From Bradyrhizobium sp. AZCC 2176 (lineage in GTDB: Bacteria; Pseudomonadota; Alphaproteobacteria; Rhizobiales; Xanthobacteraceae), in the NCBI RefSeq assembly GCF_036924645.1, contig NZ_JAZHRX010000001.1:6847501-6911500 (forward strand): a stretch of 64,000 nt of DNA, in the 5' to 3' direction. Every line of letters starts with the position of its first letter. Position 1 is the stretch's first letter. The notes under the pieces were generated by a model that did not search any database, was not told the DNA's origin, and saw only the letters and a program-made list of their open reading frames with translations. The position numbers and the translations under genes were made by a program. Below, piece after piece: positions 44,441-63,335 of the stretch.

Positions 44441-45274
44441 TTACTTCTTCCGCTTATGGCGGCTTAGGAGGATGAATCGATTGGTCGACTTGTTCGACCG
44501 CGTCTTCTTGCCCTTGGTCGGCTTGCCCCACGGGGTAACCGGGTGGCGGCCGCCCGAGGTGCGGCCTTCGCCGCCGCCGTGCGGATGGTCGATCGGGTTC
44601 ATGACGACGCCGCGGTTATGCGGGCGCCAGCCGAGCCAGCGGGTGCGGCCGGCCTTGCCGATCGAGATGTTCATGTGGTCGGGGTTCGACACCGCACCGA
44701 TGGTGCCGCGGCAACGGCCGTGCACCAGGCGCTGCTCGCCCGAATTCAGGCGCAGGATGACGTAATCCTGGTCGCGGCCGACGATCTGGGCGTAGGTGCC
44801 GGCCGAACGCGCGATCTGGCCACCCTTCCCGATCTTCATCTCGATGTTATGGACGATGGTGCCGACCGGCATGTTGCCGAGCGGCATGACGTTGCCGGGC
44901 TTGACGTCGACATAATTGCCGGCAACCACCGTGTCGCCCGCGGCCAGCCGTTGCGGCGCCAGGATGTAGGCCTGCTCGCCGTCCTGATACTTGATCAGCG
45001 CGATGAACGCGGTGCGGTTCGGATCATATTCCAGCCGCTCGACGACGGCGGGCATGTCGACCTTGTTCCGCTTGAAGTCCACGATGCGGTAGGCCTTCTT
45101 GTGGCCGCCGCCGCGGAAGCGCACCGTGATGCGGCCGGTGTTGTTGCGGCCGCCGTTACCGAGCTTGCCCTCGGTCAGCGCCTTCACCGGCTTGCCCTTG
45201 TAGAGGGCCGAACGGTCGACCATCACCAGCTGGCGCTGGCCCGGCGTCGTCGGATTGTAAGTTTTCAATGCCAT
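44441..45274 (-). CDS. rplB: 50S ribosomal protein L2
   Basis: L2 is needed for subunit joining and peptidyl transferase structure. The 277-residue product contains [40 protein letters not shown], and the highly conserved [20 protein letters not shown], which includes the functionally important His (HPHGGGEG). Standard length. Confidence 0.98.
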
Positions 45275-51195: not shown

Positions 51196-51567
51196 TTATT
51201 TCGGACGCTTCGCGCCGTACTTCGAACGGCGCTGCTTACGGTTCTTGACGCCCTGGGTGTCGAGGACGCCGCGGAGGATGTGGTAGCGCACGCCAGGCAA
51301 GTCCTTGACGCGGCCGCCGCGGATCATCACCACCGAGTGCTCCTGAAGGTTATGGCCTTCACCCGGGATGTAGCCGATCACTTCGAAGCCGTTGGTCAGG
51401 CGCACCTTGGCGACCTTACGCAGCGCCGAGTTCGGCTTCTTCGGGGTCGTGGTATAGACGCGCGTGCAAACACCGCGCTTCTGCGGCGACTGCTGCAGCG
51501 CCGGCACCTTCTTGCGTGACTTCTGCACCGCACGCGGATTTGCGATCAGTTGGTTGATCGTCGGCAT
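51196..51567 (-). CDS. rpsL: 30S ribosomal protein S12
   Basis: S12 monitors decoding. The start at 51567 gives 123 residues, the standard length. [20 protein letters not shown] and [20 protein letters not shown] are intact. Lys43 and Lys88, the classic streptomycin-resistance positions, are both Lys, and Asp89 (methylthiolation site) is present, so S12 is of the streptomycin-sensitive type. It is the first gene of the long ribosomal cluster, with a leader of about 420 bases. Confidence 0.98.
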
Positions 51568-51992
51568 GTCAGCCTTCACCCTTTAGTTCACGCGAAACCT
51601 AGACTGGCTTTCGCAAATTCTTCTCGGAACTAGCCGTTCCGTTCGGCCCGCCTTGCGCAGAAAAAACATCCACGCAAAACGAAATCGCGCCAACCACTCA
51701 TCGCTGAGCGGAAAGCGCTTCGACGCCACAGAGGACCGCAAGTGAAGGCCGATCAGCGTTCGCTGTCCGGCCTGCTACCGAGGTCATGCATCCGAGTTCA
51801 CTCTCAAGAGGACGTGCTCAAGAGAACTAAAATCGTCCTGGCATTGCCTAGCAAATATGATCGACAGCGTTTGAGCGGCATTCGTCGAGGGTGGTGCCCG
51901 TCCCGGTCCTTTAGGAAACTTCCGTAAGGATTTGAAAGGGTGTTCCGTTCCGACGCTGGCGTTGCTCACCGCCTGTCGTTAAGTGGCCGTCT

Positions 51993-52248: not shown

Positions 52249-53472
52249 ATGAAATACACCGACATTGCGATCATCGGCGGCGGCCTGGCCGGCTCGACCG
52301 CCGCCGCCATGCTCGGACGCGCGGGAATTCCGACAGTTCTGATCGATCCGCATCAGGTCTATCCGTTCGACTTCCGCGTCGAAAAAATCAGCGGCGACGA
52401 GCAGCTCGGCCGCTTTTACCAGACCGGAATCGCCGATTCGGTGCTTCGCTCGGCCACCCATGACGGCGAAAACTGGATCGCGCGATTCGGCTACCTGCTC
52501 GACAAGAAGCCGAGCCGCCAATACGGCATCATGTACGACGCGCTGATCGGCGCGGTCCGGGCGGAAATCGTAGCTCCCGCCGAACTCGTCTACGGCAAGG
52601 TGACCGATGTCTCGACCAGCGCAGAGCGGCAGAAGCTCACGCTGTCCAACGGCGAAACGCTCTCGGCGCGCCTGGTGGTGCTGGCCAACGGGCTAAGTGT
52701 CGGGCTGCGCCGCAATCTCGGCATCGAGCGCCAGGTCCTCAGCGTCAGCCATTCCATCTCGATCGGATTTGACCTGGTGCCGGTCGGCCGCCCGGCCTTC
52801 GAATTTCCCGCCCTGACCTATTTTTCGGAGCGGGCCAAGGAGCGCGTCGCTTATGTGACGCTCTTCCCTGTCGGAAACCGGATGCGCGCCAACCTTTTCG
52901 TCTACCGCGAGGTCGACGACCCCTGGCTGCGCGAGATGCGGAAGCGGCCGGTCGAAACCATGAATGCCGCGCTGCCCAGGCTGCGCCGGATCACCGGCGA
53001 ATACGGCGTTGCCGGCGACGTCAAGATCCGGCCTGCGGACCTTTACGTCTCTACCGGCTATCGCCAGCCCGGCGTCGTTCTGGTCGGCGACGCCTTTGCG
53101 GCGACCTGCCCGGTGACCGGCACCGGTACCGACAAAGTGTTCACCGACATAGCCCGACTCTGCAACGTCCATATCCCCGTCTGGCTTGCGACCGAGGGCA
53201 TGGATGCGGCCAAGATCGCTTCCTTCTATGACGATCCGGTCAAGCAGGCCTGCGACGCCTGGTCGATGGCCAAGGCCGTCAGCTTCCGCAAGGTCACGAT
53301 CGAGAACGGGCTGTACTGGCGTGCACAGCGTTGGGCGCGCTTCCTGGCGTGGTTGGGCGAAGGTGCCATGCGGCGGATGCGCAGCCGCGTCAGCGCGGCG
53401 TTAAACCGCCGCGCTTACTCCTCGTCATCATCCTCATCATCGTCATCGTCTTCATTGTCGTCGTCGGCCTGA
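52249..53472 (+). CDS. FAD-dependent oxidoreductase / monooxygenase-like protein
   Basis: The ATG at 52249 begins a Rossmann fold directly (MKYTDIAIIGGGLAGSTAAA, GxGxxG at 10-15). The second FAD motif GDAFAATCPVTGTGTDKVF near residues 278-296 resembles the GD-containing motif of aromatic hydroxylases, halogenases and geranylgeranyl-reductase-like enzymes; the tryptophan-halogenase WxWxIP is absent. About 407 residues. The last 17 residues are almost only Ser, encoded by TCG/TCA repeats antisense to the acidic tail of the converging ABC transporter gene, which it overlaps by 58 bases. Adjacent genes suggest a joint role in making and exporting a compound; substrate unknown. Confidence 0.82.
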   Translation: MKYTDIAIIGGGLAGSTAAAMLGRAGIPTVLIDPHQVYPFDFRVEKISGDEQLGRFYQTGIADSVLRSATHDGENWIARFGYLLDKKPSRQYGIMYDALIGAVRAEIVAPAELVYGKVTDVSTSAERQKLTLSNGETLSARLVVLANGLSVGLRRNLGIERQVLSVSHSISIGFDLVPVGRPAFEFPALTYFSERAKERVAYVTLFPVGNRMRANLFVYREVDDPWLREMRKRPVETMNAALPRLRRITGEYGVAGDVKIRPADLYVSTGYRQPGVVLVGDAFAATCPVTGTGTDKVFTDIARLCNVHIPVWLATEGMDAAKIASFYDDPVKQACDAWSMAKAVSFRKVTIENGLYWRAQRWARFLAWLGEGAMRRMRSRVSAALNRRAYSSSSSSSSSSSSLSSSA

Positions 53473-55439
53473 GCGGCGGCCTGGTGCGGCGTGTGGCCCT
53501 GGTCGTCCCAGAGCTTGCGATAGACGCCGTTGGCCGCGAGCAATTGCGCATGCGAGCCGCGCTCGATTGCCTTGCCGCCCGAAATCACGATGATCTCGTC
53601 CATCTCGACCACCGACGTCAGGCGGTGGGTCGACCAGATCATGGTGCGCCCCTCCGCCACGTTGAGAAGCGTGCGGTTGATCGCGGCTTCCGTGGTCTGG
53701 TCGAGCGCCGACGTCGCCTCGTCGAGCAGCAGCAGCGAGGGATTGCGGATGATCGCACGCGCAATCGCGATGCGCTGGCGCTGGCCACCCGACAGCGTGT
53801 CGCCGCGCTCGCCGACCGGCGTGTCGTATTTCTGCGGCAGGCTCGTGATGTAGCGGTGAATCTCAGCCTTGCGCGCCGCCTCCTCGACCTCCTCGTCGCT
53901 GGCGCCTTCCTTGCCGAGCCGGATATTCTCGCGGATCGACATGTTGAACAGCATGTTCTCCTGGAACACGATCGCCATGCTCGCCCGCAGGGATTCGCGC
54001 GTCACGCGGCGGATATCGACGCCGTCGATCGCGACCCGCCCCTCGTCCGGCGTGTAAAGGCGCAGGATCAGGTTGAGCAGCGTGCTCTTGCCCGAGCCGC
54101 TCGGACCCACGATCGCGATGCGCTTGCCGACGCCGAGCTTGAGGCTGAAATTATCCAGCACCGGCGTCTCGCTGCCTTCGTAGGCGAAGGTGACGCGGTC
54201 GAATGTGATGTCGTTGGTGATGCGCGGCAGATCGGGCGCGCCCGGACGATCGGCGCCGCGCGTCGGCTCGTCCAGCAGTTCCTGCATGTGCCGCACCGCC
54301 GCCGCCGACTGGATCGACACCGGAATGAAGTGCATCAGGTGAGCGATGTTGTAGGACACCTCCCAGAATGCGCTCTCAAAAGTGACGAACGTGCCGATGG
54401 TGATCTGGCCCTTGGTGGCGAGATAGGCGCCGATCGCCAGCACGACGAGGTGCAGCAGCAAGACTGAAATGGTGACGGTGCGCTCCACCATCGTGGAAAG
54501 GAAGACAGCGGACGCGGTCTTGATGCGCACATCCTGGTTGCGCATGGTGAACCAGCCGAGCGTACGGCGCTGCAGGCTGAACGCCTTGATCACCGCCTGC
54601 GCCGCCACGTTTTCCTGCACCGTGCCGAGCAGCGCCGACTCGTTCAATTTCTGCTCGTAATTTGCCTGCACCGCCTTCGGCGTCAGGATTCGCGGCCCGA
54701 TCAGCGTGATCGGAAATACCAGCAAGGCGACCGCCGCGAGCTGCCAGTTCAAAAACAGCATCAGGATGATGCCGGCGATCAGTTCCAGGAACGGCAGCGC
54801 CGCGCTGTTGGCGAAGGTCTTGATCGAGCCTTCGAAGGCCGCGAGATCGATCGAGAAGCGCGAGAGAATCTCACCGCGCTTGGTGCGGGCAAAATACGAT
54901 GACGGCAGATTCTGGACGTGCTCGAACAGCCGCGCCCGTACATCGGCAATGATGCACGCCGCCAGCCGCGCATCCCAGCGTTCATACCAGACCGCAATGA
55001 TCGAGGTGATGATGCCGGCGACCGCCAGCACGCCAAGGATCTTGTAGAGTGCCTGAAAATCCTCTTCGCCGAGCGCGTCGTCGATCAGGAATTTGAGGCT
55101 CAGCGGCATGATGACATTGAACAACGTCTCGACCAAGACCCCGAAACTGACGAAGATCAGAAGTTTCCTGTAATTGCCCAGATACGGCTTGACGAAGCCG
55201 TACATCGTCGCCAGCGCGCCGGCGGCTTCCTTGGCGGTGAAGACGACGAGATCCTCGTCGTCTTCATCGTCCTCAAGCTCCAGTTCGTCGTCGTCTTCCT
55301 TCTCATCGTCGGAGGGCGCGCCGGCCGCCTTGCCGCCGGAAAGCGGGGCGACAGTCGCCAATAAGAGCTTCTTCGCAAGCTCGGGATCGTCCGCCGGCGC
55401 GGAATTCTGATCATCCGAGGAAGGAGGCTTGGGCGCCAT
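53415..55439 (-). CDS. ABC exporter (fused permease-ATPase) with acidic tails
   Basis: The 674-residue half-transporter has six membrane helices (about 90-380) followed by an ATPase with Walker A GPSGSGKS (445-452), signature LSGGQ (549-553), Walker B LLLLDEAT and H-loop STHRL, all intact. It probably exports a lipid or hydrophobic product as a dimer, like MsbA. Unusual are two acidic low-complexity segments: residues 43-63 (Asp/Glu-rich) and the last 18 residues, almost all Asp/Glu. The C-terminal acidic run overlaps the FAD oxidoreductase gene in antisense. The gene follows the oxidase-methyltransferase gene (162-base gap) on the same strand. Confidence 0.92.
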   Translation of the reverse strand: MAPKPPSSDDQNSAPADDPELAKKLLLATVAPLSGGKAAGAPSDDEKEDDDELELEDDEDDEDLVVFTAKEAAGALATMYGFVKPYLGNYRKLLIFVSFGVLVETLFNVIMPLSLKFLIDDALGEEDFQALYKILGVLAVAGIITSIIAVWYERWDARLAACIIADVRARLFEHVQNLPSSYFARTKRGEILSRFSIDLAAFEGSIKTFANSAALPFLELIAGIILMLFLNWQLAAVALLVFPITLIGPRILTPKAVQANYEQKLNESALLGTVQENVAAQAVIKAFSLQRRTLGWFTMRNQDVRIKTASAVFLSTMVERTVTISVLLLHLVVLAIGAYLATKGQITIGTFVTFESAFWEVSYNIAHLMHFIPVSIQSAAAVRHMQELLDEPTRGADRPGAPDLPRITNDITFDRVTFAYEGSETPVLDNFSLKLGVGKRIAIVGPSGSGKSTLLNLILRLYTPDEGRVAIDGVDIRRVTRESLRASMAIVFQENMLFNMSIRENIRLGKEGASDEEVEEAARKAEIHRYITSLPQKYDTPVGERGDTLSGGQRQRIAIARAIIRNPSLLLLDEATSALDQTTEAAINRTLLNVAEGRTMIWSTHRLTSVVEMDEIIVISGGKAIERGSHAQLLAANGVYRKLWDDQGHTPHQAAAQADDDNEDDDDDEDDDEE

Positions 55440-55601
55440 AAAACCAACCGATGCTGCACGGCCGGCATGACCGCAAATCGAACGCGGCAGCGGCGGGCGC
55501 TACCGCACGGATTCTATGCGATCGGGATCAATTCGGCAAACATTTGGCGCGCGGCGCTGATTCATCAGAGCCGGGCGCGCCTTAATACAACTGGTCGAAC
55601 C

Positions 55602-57656
55602 TCAATCGTCCGATTCGACCTTGTCGAAGAACGAATAGCGCAGGCTGTCGGCGTCGGCGTACCACTGCCCCGGCCCCTTGTTGGCGGCCAGCGTCGCCGC
55701 CCACACCGCATCGGTGCAGTCACGGCGGTGCATCGAGAGGTCGAAGCCGTTGCCGAAGAACAATTCGGACCATTCCCACCAGGTACCGAGCTTCTTCACG
55801 CCGCGCAGCAGGTCGTAACGGTCGATCAGCGCGGGGGCCATGTCGGACGTCACCGACCCGAACACCAGCCCGGTCTTCACGACGCGGTTGAGTTCGCGCA
55901 CCGCCCGCGGCACCTGCTTTTCGGCGACATGGCAAAGGCTGGTCTCGAACACGAAATCGAATTCGTCGTCCTTGAACGGCATGTCGACGATGGAGCCGAG
56001 CTTGTTGTACTTTTTCAGTGCCTTCGGCGTTTTGGCGTGGATCGCCTTGTTGTTTTCGATACCCCAGGCATCGATGCCGCGCTCGCGTAGCGCGCCGACC
56101 AGTTCGCCGCTGGCGGAGCCGGCGACGAGCAGCTTGTAGCCCTTGGCCCTGTCCCAGACGATCTTGATCAGGTCCGTCAGATAGGCCGGATCGGTAAACC
56201 GGTTCCAGACTTCGCTATACGGGCCAATGCCACGGTAATTCTCGAAATAGCTGAGGTCGATCTTGTCGGATGACAGCTCGCCTTGCTGGGCCCGGGCACG
56301 GCGCAACCGCATCATCTCGGTCAGAACGATATCGGTGGCGGCGTCGGAAGAATCGAGCAGGCCATTGAGCGTCGAATCGAACAGATAATCGCCGACCACC
56401 ACGATCCCCGGGTGCTGCTTCGGTTCCGGACGATGGTTGGTCATGACGTCCCGCACCGGCATCCCGCCCGGCAGCGCGTTCACCGATGACAGCCAGCGGT
56501 GAATCCTGCCTTCCATGAAATGGTCGCGGGCGTTGCCGAACGCGGCCGGCAGCGACTTGAGCGCCGCGTCGATCAGTTCCTGGTCGCTGAGATTGGCAAA
56601 CGCCAGCGCATCGGAACCTGCGATCAGCCAGTTGAGCACGCCGTGCTTGCCGACGTCGTGGCGGGCGCCCTCATTATAGACGCAGCAGCCGCCGAACGCT
56701 TCCGACATGAACCAGGCGCCGGCGATCTTCTCGCCCCAGAACGGCTCGTCGAACAGGATCGAAACCCGAAGGTAATGCGCCGGACGGTCGAAATAGGCGA
56801 CGTGCTTGACCATCGACTTGCGCAGCTCTTCGCCATCCCAACGCATGGTGGCGAGCCAGGAATGTGGCAGACACATCAGCACCAGATCGAAATCCCGTGT
56901 CTCCGGCCCCTTCCCGTTCATCATATTGAGTTGATAGCGGCCGCTATTGGTCTTGCCGACCTTGAGCACGCGGTGATTGAGCTGGATGTTGGCATCGACT
57001 TCCGAGCGCAGGCACTCGATCAACTGCTCGTTGCCGTTCTGGATCGAGTACAGGCCGATATAGCCGTCGATATCCATCACGAAGTTCTTCAGCGCGTTCA
57101 GCCCGTTGGTATTGTGGCTTTCAGTCGCGATATCCGAGCGCGCCATCACCTTGAAGAAGCGCTTGGCGATGGGATCGTCGACTTCCTTGTCGAGCACTTC
57201 CTCGCAGGTCATGTAGGCCCAAGGGTGCTCGTTGTCGTGGGCGCCGACGCCCTCGTAATATTCGATCGGCGAGACCATGTCGCTGCAGCGCTTGCGGAAC
57301 GCCTCGATCGCAGCCGCGGTCTTCTCACCATATTTGCGGCGCATGCCCGGCACGTCGTGGAGCAGCTCACCGTCGAGATGCACCTGCTCGGCGTCCATCG
57401 GTATGGTCTGCAGGCCGAAATGCTGGATCAGTTCCCTTAAGGGATCCGGGCCGGTCATTGAATAATCGTAGATTTCGGCGACGCCTGCCTCGTACATCGC
57501 CGGCGCGGAATCGAATTTGCGCGAGACAATCTTGCCCCCGATTCTGTCGGATGCCTCGTAGATCGTGACGCGGCAGAGATCGCCGAGCTTTTTCTTCAAA
57601 TACCAGGCACTCATCAGCCCGCCCGGGCCGCCGCCCACGATTGCAAGATCCAACAT
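55602..57656 (-). CDS. Amine-oxidase-like FAD protein fused to SAM methyltransferase
   Basis: Residues 1 to about 470 form an FAD protein of the amine oxidase/protoporphyrinogen oxidase/desaturase type: MLDLAIVGGGPGGLMSAWYL (GGGPGG at 8-13), YEASDRIGGKIVSRK (the GG doublet), and a C-terminal FAD site GIVVVGDYLFDSTLNGLLDS. Residues about 490-684 form a class I methyltransferase: motif I LLVAGSASGELVGALRERG near 508-526, acidic GIENN, and DEFDFVFETSLCHVAEKQV. No linker stop or frameshift is visible, so it is a true two-domain protein of 684 residues. It could oxidise and methylate one substrate in succession. The terminator at 57793-57819 separates it from the LuxR-type regulator upstream. Product unknown. 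Confidence 0.88.
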   Translation of the reverse strand: MLDLAIVGGGPGGLMSAWYLKKKLGDLCRVTIYEASDRIGGKIVSRKFDSAPAMYEAGVAEIYDYSMTGPDPLRELIQHFGLQTIPMDAEQVHLDGELLHDVPGMRRKYGEKTAAAIEAFRKRCSDMVSPIEYYEGVGAHDNEHPWAYMTCEEVLDKEVDDPIAKRFFKVMARSDIATESHNTNGLNALKNFVMDIDGYIGLYSIQNGNEQLIECLRSEVDANIQLNHRVLKVGKTNSGRYQLNMMNGKGPETRDFDLVLMCLPHSWLATMRWDGEELRKSMVKHVAYFDRPAHYLRVSILFDEPFWGEKIAGAWFMSEAFGGCCVYNEGARHDVGKHGVLNWLIAGSDALAFANLSDQELIDAALKSLPAAFGNARDHFMEGRIHRWLSSVNALPGGMPVRDVMTNHRPEPKQHPGIVVVGDYLFDSTLNGLLDSSDAATDIVLTEMMRLRRARAQQGELSSDKIDLSYFENYRGIGPYSEVWNRFTDPAYLTDLIKIVWDRAKGYKLLVAGSASGELVGALRERGIDAWGIENNKAIHAKTPKALKKYNKLGSIVDMPFKDDEFDFVFETSLCHVAEKQVPRAVRELNRVVKTGLVFGSVTSDMAPALIDRYDLLRGVKKLGTWWEWSELFFGNGFDLSMHRRDCTDAVWAATLAANKGPGQWYADADSLRYSFFDKVESDD

Positions 57657-57792
57657 GTCTTTTCCGTCGCCCCTCCGGCCCCCCTGCCTTCCGAAGCAGC
57701 CGGTCTAAACCGCATCTAGCAAAAGCGCTTTTCACCCTGAAGGGAAGATGAACAAAGCAGGTCCTCGCAACGCAGCAATGAAAGAAAGCAGC

Positions 57793-57819
57793 AAAAAGGC
57801 CGGCTTGCGCCCGCCTTTT
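57793..57819 (-). terminator. Terminator after the LuxR-type gene
   Basis: AAAAGGC and GCCTTTT, extended by GG/CC after one mismatch, form a stem with six loop bases. On the minus strand it ends in TTTTT, and it lies about 85 bases past the LuxR-type stop and before the fusion gene. Confidence 0.7.
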
Positions 57820-57902
57820 GACTTCGCACCGTATTCTTGCGGAAGCCCTATTTCGCCGGCGGGGTGTGGCCGTTCCGCCTCTGCAATCAAGGACGCGGTT
57901 AT

Positions 57903-59000
57903 CTAGCCGCCACGGAACGCCTTGCCGGCGAGCAGGCTGACAAGCTCCTGCTGGCGCGAGAGGCCGGTCTTCGACAGCACGGCCTTGAGCTGGCTGCGCA
58001 CGGTCTCCCGATTGACGCCCGACGCGTCGGCAAGTGTATCGATGGTTTCAGCCTGGCCGATGCCCCGCGCCACGCGCGCTTCCGCCGGCGTCAGGTCGAA
58101 CAGGCCTTGCAGGACTTCCGCGGTCGGCACCGCGGCGCGGTTGACCGGCGTCACCACCAACAGCGCGGTAGCCCGCGTGAAGATATCGTGCGCGGAACCG
58201 CGTACCGGGATCACATGCAGCACCATCGGTACTTGACCTGCCGTCGCGGCGATCGGTATGGACTTCACGGTACGGTCACCGGCAAAAGGCAGCGTGCCGA
58301 GCGCTTCGCCGAGCAACACGTCCGCCGCAACGTCCGCTATCGTGACGCGCTGGGCGCGATCCTGAAACAGCGAAGGCATCAGCGCTTCGAACAGACCGTT
58401 TGCCGCGAACACCCGGCCGCGCCCACGCAACACCGCACCTGGCAGGCCCAGCACCTGCAGCGCATCAGCCTGCGCGCGGGCACGCTCGAAGCCAAGGCGG
58501 TTCGCCGTCAGGGACGCCCGGGCCAGATGCGGCCGCAGCCCATCCAGCAAGGTGACGATTTCCCGCGGTACCGGACCGCGGTCCTGATGCCGCGGCACGA
58601 CAATCGCGATGGAATCGCCGCTCGGTATCGGAATGATCGTTCCCGCCCGATAACCGATGCCGTGTTTGCGGTAAAAATTGCAATAGACGTCGTTGGTCGC
58701 GATCTCCTCCTCGGAGAGGAGGTCATGGTCGGTGACGAAGCCCGCATGATTGAGGGCGATGGCGCGCGGCAAATCAGGATCGCGCTCGCTCCATCCGTCT
58801 CTCAGGAAAACCGGCACGATCTCGTCATATTCGACGGAATTGACCGCGCTTGTGTATCCGTCCCGCACGCCGAACAGAAAACCGCCATTGCCGCCGACCG
58901 CCGCACCGAGTTCACCCAGTACCGCCGGCCAAAGCGATGGAACGAGCCCTGCCTCGTAGATGCGATCGATCAGGGATTCGAAATGAACCGGCTCGCTCAT
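57903..59000 (-). CDS. LuxR-type transcriptional regulator
   Basis: The C-terminal 60 residues are a LuxR helix-turn-helix: FDLTPAEARVARGIGQAETI, then DTLADASGVNRETVRSQLKA and VLSKTGLSRQQELVSLL. The first 300 residues start FESLIDRIYEAGLVPSLWPA, a sensor region that I remember in many alphaproteobacterial LuxR proteins lacking an AHL-binding domain. Start uncertain: ATG 59000 fits the family but lacks a clear Shine-Dalgarno; ATG 59048 and GTG 59051 are in frame, with GGACGGG upstream. It lies between rpoC and the oxidase-methyltransferase gene and is a candidate regulator of that group. Confidence 0.82.
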   Translation of the reverse strand: MSEPVHFESLIDRIYEAGLVPSLWPAVLGELGAAVGGNGGFLFGVRDGYTSAVNSVEYDEIVPVFLRDGWSERDPDLPRAIALNHAGFVTDHDLLSEEEIATNDVYCNFYRKHGIGYRAGTIIPIPSGDSIAIVVPRHQDRGPVPREIVTLLDGLRPHLARASLTANRLGFERARAQADALQVLGLPGAVLRGRGRVFAANGLFEALMPSLFQDRAQRVTIADVAADVLLGEALGTLPFAGDRTVKSIPIAATAGQVPMVLHVIPVRGSAHDIFTRATALLVVTPVNRAAVPTAEVLQGLFDLTPAEARVARGIGQAETIDTLADASGVNRETVRSQLKAVLSKTGLSRQQELVSLLAGKAFRGG

Positions 59001-59088
59001 GGGGACTTGCCGATATTGGACACCATTGCCTGACTTGATAGCAGGCATCACCCGTCCGGGTGAAGCGCCAGATTCCCGTTCGCGAAAG

Positions 59089-59117
59089 AAAAAGCCGGCT
59101 TCGCAGCCGGCTTTTTT
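59089..59117 (-). terminator. Terminator of rpoBC
   Basis: AAAAAGCCGGCT and AGCCGGCTTTTTT pair perfectly around TCGC, 18 bases past the rpoC stop, with T-runs on both strands. A strong terminator here isolates rpoBC from the genes that follow. Confidence 0.93.

Positions 59118-59135: not shown

Positions 59136-63335
<4,200 letters not shown>

Follow-up and report, generated by a model that had tools for sequence, protein, structure and literature searches.

A flavin oxidase-methyltransferase fusion and an ABC exporter between rpoC and rpsL of Bradyrhizobium: a conserved gene pair with two optional neighbours

What are the genes that separate rpoC from rpsL in Bradyrhizobium sp. AZCC 2176, and do they form a single system? 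The window (the whole stretch of 64,000 nucleotides analysed here, part of a 7.1 Mb genome in a single contig) contains an rpoC-rpsL gap of ~7.6 kb. An earlier reading of the sequence alone (the sequence-only reading) saw four genes in it, and took a LuxR-type regulator, an FAD oxidase fused to a methyltransferase, an ABC exporter and a second FAD protein on the opposite strand for one compact accessory locus that makes and secretes a modified molecule. All four open reading frames are indeed present. Transcription of the minus strand proceeds in the order rpoC, D, C, B, rpsL, with A on the plus strand in the same gap:

51196-51579, minus strand: rpsL, one flank of the gap
52249-53472, plus strand: gene A, FAD monooxygenase, 407 aa, with the fold of group A hydroxylases, PF01494 (FAD_binding_3); optional
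53415-55439, minus strand: gene B, ABC exporter, 674 aa, ABC_membrane and ABC_tran by Pfam; core of the module
55440-55601, minus strand: 162 bp between C and B, including a GC-rich hairpin that has no T-run
55602-57656, minus strand: gene C, flavin oxidase-methyltransferase fusion, 684 aa, by Pfam; core of the module
57793-57827, minus strand: terminator-like hairpin and T-run after D, -16.4 kcal/mol, z -2.6
57903-59051, minus strand: gene D, LuxR-like regulator, as the GTG open reading frame (probable start ATG 59000); optional
59083-59115, minus strand: rho-independent-type terminator after rpoC, hairpin and T-run, -18.2 kcal/mol, z -4.0
59136-63335, minus strand: rpoC, the other flank of the gap

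Layout of the interval

The domain content of C, B and A agrees with what had been read from the sequence. Pfam places an Amino_oxidase domain at residues 12-432 of C (102.5 bits, cut-off 19.8) and Methyltransf_11 (PF08241) at residues 512-596 (38.8 bits, cut-off 21.2), which bears out the fusion; the oxidase occupies approximately residues 1-455 and the class I SAM methyltransferase ~466-684. B joins a membrane domain to an ATPase domain in a single chain with acidic N- and C-terminal tails, as expected of an ABC exporter, and the FAD-binding domain of A confirms the second FAD protein on the opposite strand. The LuxR assignment survives only in part: the D frame exists, but D has no Pfam domain at 0.001 and gives no GerE hit; in two relatives of D, GerE scores 12.4 and 15.8 bits, below the cut-off of 23.5. 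The probable start of D is ATG 59000, residue 18 when counted from the GTG: nine of its 18 relatives have in-frame stops before this codon and none after it.

The proposed terminators after rpoC and after the LuxR gene fare similarly. Hairpins with T-runs stand at both places, but a simple scanner detects the one on the rpoC side and misses the one on the D side, and its overall count of terminators (7, against 7.2 in shuffles) shows no excess. The terminator-like hairpin after D suggests that D is probably transcribed separately from C. Promoter prediction is uninformative (1 found, 1.5 expected), and no RNA family reaches the gathering threshold between positions 45000 and 64000 of the window.

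The A and B frames overlap tail to tail by 58 bp (53415-53472), the serine-rich end of A being antisense to the Asp/Glu-rich end of B. This tail is missing in 11 other aligned A proteins, and it looks as though the original stop codon of A was lost. The space between B and rpsL is an insertion spot in other genomes: it holds FkbM and ATP-grasp genes at locus L148, similar genes at L143, a glycosyltransferase and a flippase-like gene at L149, and a metal ATPase with regulators, identified by eye, at L140.

The oxidase-methyltransferase and the exporter as a pair

How constant is this arrangement? We examined 97 loci, comprising the best 80 of 252 C-bearing relatives (whose genus-labelled records are Bradyrhizobium or Tardiphaga, the rest being uncultured) and 17 loci from other genera; 10 of the 97 do not span the gap. 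The order rpoC-C-B-rpsL on one strand is found in all 87 that do, a figure that speaks to the constancy of the neighbourhood and not to its frequency, these loci having been picked for possessing C. Frequency is given by a sample of 248 genomes of the family searched with C and B. C has matches at E <= 0.001 in 127 of them: 90 at 75% identity or more, six from genus g65 at 42-43%, and 31 in which the similarity is just weak and local. A B ortholog (E <= 1e-180) is present in 89 of the 248, distributed over 12 of 47 genera, which presumably include Rhodopseudomonas, Nitrobacter and Afipia. Both genes are present in 89 of the 90 C-bearing genomes, and B occurs alone in none of the 248. B lies 74-630 bp downstream of C on the same strand for 89 of 91 C copies, in 88 of the 90 genomes. 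Of the two exceptions, one is a C that sits at the edge of a contig (G231, with C only) and the other a genome in which C and B are on separate contigs. The pair is not strictly universal, since it is missing from some genomes of genera that otherwise have it (G078, G119, G160 and G177 of genus g44, for example). In wider samples C is found at E <= 1e-60 in 11 of 398 genomes of the phylum, all of the same family, and in four of 385 genomes of the class, of which two belong to other families. A search of 72,556 plasmid records for a mobile origin of C gave no match. The pairing of C and B is thus well supported, and the clade has conserved C-B for a long time, which does not fit the wedged-in accessory locus that the sequence-only reading proposed. 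In one Bradyrhizobium genome (G021, locus L120) C is split into two overlapping frames at approximately residue 348 with B intact; the split is either real or an artefact of sequencing.

Pairwise comparison against the window (Nei-Gojobori, dropping dS < 0.1 or > 2.5 and short alignments) gives a median dN/dS of 0.108 for C (n=97) and 0.165 for B (n=96), next to 0.080 for both rpoC (n=86) and fusA (n=82). C is accordingly under strong purifying selection. A gene held almost as tightly as RNA polymerase, with an exporter adjacent to it in 88 of 90 genomes, suggests that a conserved metabolite has been overlooked.

The reading that we favour, with modest confidence, is that C and B constitute the functional unit, with C oxidising and methylating one substrate and B exporting the product. 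The N-terminal MAO-fold domain of C would oxidise the substrate with FAD, the C-terminal class I domain would methylate the same molecule from SAM, and B, as an ABCB/MsbA-type exporter, would take the resulting product across the inner membrane. The data show the pairing, its conservation, the domain families or folds and the cofactor motifs. That one substrate serves both domains of C, that B carries the product of C, that this product is small and amphipathic, and that it is transported in this direction is what we infer. Several observations count against such a unit: the 162 bp spacing between C and B with a hairpin in it, the occurrence elsewhere of C without an adjacent B, the split C beside an intact B in G021, and the congeners that do without the pair.

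An alternative that we regard as unlikely and yet the most serious is that shared descent alone keeps C and B side by side, C acting intracellularly, B serving as a general lipid or drug exporter, and the interval being rarely rearranged. Long-term synteny within one family can be neutral, and genes inherited vertically in one clade could stay adjacent even if they had no pathway in common. In addition, B is similar to MsbA and to multidrug exporters, C occurs in other lineages with no B next to it, and a genome lacking C (G081) nevertheless has a relative of B. What argues against descent as the whole explanation is the pair's occurrence in a second context, in bacteria that we call Phreatobacter-like (family f20, a label that rests on a 93%-identical database protein). 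There, B adjoins C in the same orientation in 12 of 12 genomes with C (ten loci, L150-L159, together with G482 by way of L162 and G565 by way of coordinates), the proteins being 40-43% (C) and 43-44% (B) identical to those of the window. The setting is a different one in the three loci that were read (L119, L162 and L163), with neither rpoC nor rpsL within ~20 kb; the neighbours include TRAP transporter genes, and fabI in L119 (identified by eye), and L163 has a metallo-beta-lactamase-fold gene. The ABC gene beside C is the sole match to B at E <= 1e-90 in all four Phreatobacter-like genomes searched. Between B of the window and nine ABC paralogues encoded in the same genome, identity is just 31-38%. 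The Phreatobacter-like pair, with B closer to it than to these paralogues, makes the strongest case that the two genes are functionally linked. The pair is kept as a unit, then, both in Bradyrhizobium with its related genera and in Phreatobacter-like bacteria. Also contrary to descent alone, the three C-bearing genomes searched outside these groups (G218, G099 and G330, the C neighbourhood having been read for G218 and G330) contain no ABC exporter matching B at E <= 1e-90. Of two control genomes without C, one has no match to B at this threshold and the other, G081, has an ABC exporter that is 36% identical (3.4e-102).

B does not accompany C everywhere. In six loci (L130, L131, L132, L160, L201 and L202), from three of the six C-bearing genomes of genus g65 and from G330, G1185 and G1006, C is followed not by B but by a protein of 280-297 aa with a hydrophobic C-terminal segment, for which those scanned gave no Pfam or NCBIfam match. 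Related beta-barrel genes, 64% identical, stand upstream of C in L201 and L202 (BBP2 in L201), and the gene that comes after C in G368 is convergent and appears by eye to be transporter-like. The C proteins of g65, G330, G1185 and G1006 form a separate branch of the C tree; the tree is unrooted and so does not tell an ancestral C-B pair from two assemblies of related parts. The absence of an adjacent B in several lineages does imply that the oxidase-methyltransferase need not always have a B exporter.

Does B simply serve this clade as MsbA, the flippase of lipid A, and does C modify the lipid A or envelope precursor on which B acts? MsbA structures are among the relatives of B, B scores 376 bits against the MsbA model TIGR02203, and no exporter of the host genome reaches the curated cut-off of that model (602 bits). 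B ranks just sixth for TIGR02203 in its own genome, however, so nothing marks it out as MsbA; the identification is rejected, and the reading built on it is improbable.

Returning to C-B as an oxidation, methylation and export unit, we suggest more tentatively that C represents a new family of flavin oxidase-methyltransferases, bifunctional enzymes that have an arginine in place of the flavin lysine; that together with B it makes and exports a methylated envelope or signal molecule, near-universal in the Bradyrhizobium group (12 genera here); and that a protein of ~290 aa replaces the exporter in another lineage.

The literature adds little. No description of C or B was found in open-access papers, a search with the USDA110 gene tags around the locus returning rpsL only. 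Transposon sequencing of B. diazoefficiens 110spc4 yielded five genes that are essential there and in R. palustris and lack homologues in E. coli and Caulobacter (PMC8225791). C is missing from that five-gene Bradyrhizobiaceae-specific list (PMC8225791, Table 2), which, as far as the table goes, indicates no essential role on rich medium and weakly suggests that C is dispensable there. The text of the same paper identifies bll5409 and bll5410 as RNA polymerase subunit genes, and bll5405 is named as rpsL in a passage of another (PMC8585493); C would correspond to bll5408 and B to bll5407.

Genes A and D

A and D are distributed differently. Of the 87 gap-spanning loci, 53 have a complete A, six have part of it and 28 have none; D is found in 18, from three genera; and all four genes are complete in just 11. 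Comparing co-occurrence across relatives in this way, as the sequence-only reading had suggested, does not uphold its single four-gene system. Its compact unit of enzyme and exporter stands for C and B, and fails for A and D, which vary on their own.

A-like genes (E <= 1e-60, a threshold that admits relatives down to ~38% identity) occur in 81 of the 248 family genomes; C is missing from 25 of these 81, and another 23 have B, with A only elsewhere. A lies within 6 kb of B for 32 of the 96 A matches listed, or in 32 of the 90 C-bearing genomes. A also has a GNAT gene as a neighbour: among 11 A loci picked by hand, mostly away from C, A adjoins a GNAT (called by similarity to the GNAT of L053) in seven (L178, L179, L180, L182, L183, L185 and L186) and not in the other four. 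PF13480 was found in all five of these seven GNATs that were scanned. The two genes make up a module, exemplified by L053:14322-16929, that is met in genera with and without C-B; in G078, which has no C, A and GNAT occupy the rpoC side of the gap. GNAT is present in 15 of the 87 rpoC-rpsL loci, with a fragment in one more, while the best GNAT relative in the host genome is just 31% identical and located elsewhere. A in the window is probably an orphan, a leftover of a separate A-GNAT module. The 25 genomes with A-like genes and no C, together with the GNAT neighbourhood, make it unlikely that A and C are the "two redox flavoproteins" of one pathway. D, whose nearest paralogue in the host genome is 28% identical, is proposed to be a locally acquired or retained, optional, LuxR-like regulator.

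That all four genes specify one pathway with its regulator, A contributing a second oxidation step, is accordingly the least probable of the readings and is rejected on gene distribution across relatives: the loci with all four genes complete, the proximity of A to B in about a third of C-bearing genomes and purifying selection on A (median dN/dS 0.258, n=53) and D (0.177, n=18) favour it, but they are outweighed by the patchy presence of A and D, the genomes with A and no C or with A only away from B, the GNAT companion, the position of A on the opposite strand and the hairpin between D and C. Setting A and D apart avoids testing the wrong four-gene pathway, and the two-gene C-B pair provides the handle for finding the metabolite.

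Relation to known enzymes and exporters

A structural search with the two flavoproteins, another check that had been proposed, was productive for both, giving a group A monooxygenase fold for A and an MAO-type fold for the N-terminal part of C. The structural model of A (pLDDT 83.8) resembles group A flavin monooxygenases such as PnpA, UbiI/UbiH and the Tet destructases over nearly the whole chain, with TM scores (by query length) of 0.48-0.73 among the 50 best matches listed, which suggests that A is likely a hydroxylase and not an oxidase. At just 12-20% identity to these enzymes A represents a family of its own, adjacent to a GNAT gene in seven of the 11 loci read. It is not recognised as a UbiH/UbiF-type ubiquinone hydroxylase, its best score being 62.8 against a cut-off of 224.65 and all of the best 25 of 44 models remaining below cut-off.

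B shares the half-transporter architecture of ABCB-type exporters (MsbA, Sav1866, TM287/288, P-glycoprotein), with PDB matches from ~1e-137 to 1e-79 among the 60 best listed, and falls below each NCBIfam cut-off among the best 25 of 189 models. It differs from these exporters by an unusual Asp/Glu-rich tract at its N-terminus: 10-17 D/E per 20 residues in B and in three Phreatobacter-like proteins, against 2-6 in the matching tract of the nine paralogues of its own genome.

The C-terminal domain of C is like the class I SAM methyltransferases of the Methyltransf_11/25 type by Pfam, which is the basis of its class assignment (the fold searches cover residues 1-451), and has weak profile matches to LahSB and other SAM-dependent enzymes; Pfam and profile searches found no close characterised relative. 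G513, S514, G517 and E534, which we take to be SAM-binding residues, are invariant in an alignment of 17 of 17 C homologues. The classical motif I of class I methyltransferases is GxGxG; in C it reads GSASG. Two database homologues of C, P0128 (960 aa) and P0129 (916 aa), have two tandem methyltransferase domains after the oxidase.

The N-terminal domain belongs with the flavin amine oxidases. In the AF2 model of C (pLDDT 87.5, pTM 0.87) residues 1-451 adopt the fold of MAO, L-amino-acid oxidase and protoporphyrinogen oxidase (by Foldseek and VIA-align), and the FAD motif residues GGGPGG, E34, GGK42 and G422-D423 are invariant in the same 17 aligned homologues. The active-site lysine of amine oxidases lies next to flavin N5 and helps the reaction with oxygen. 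In the sequence alignment C does not have this lysine of the monoamine, polyamine and L-amino-acid oxidases proper; Arg297, present in 17 of 17 homologues, is aligned by profile with the lysine of putrescine oxidase and L-amino-acid oxidase, and C may therefore be a dehydrogenase or use an electron acceptor other than oxygen. Within a superfamily that comprises MAO, putrescine oxidase, L-amino-acid oxidase, protoporphyrinogen oxidase and VioA, to which its best PDB sequence match scores just 57 bits, C is set apart by this arginine and by the methyltransferase to which it is fused.
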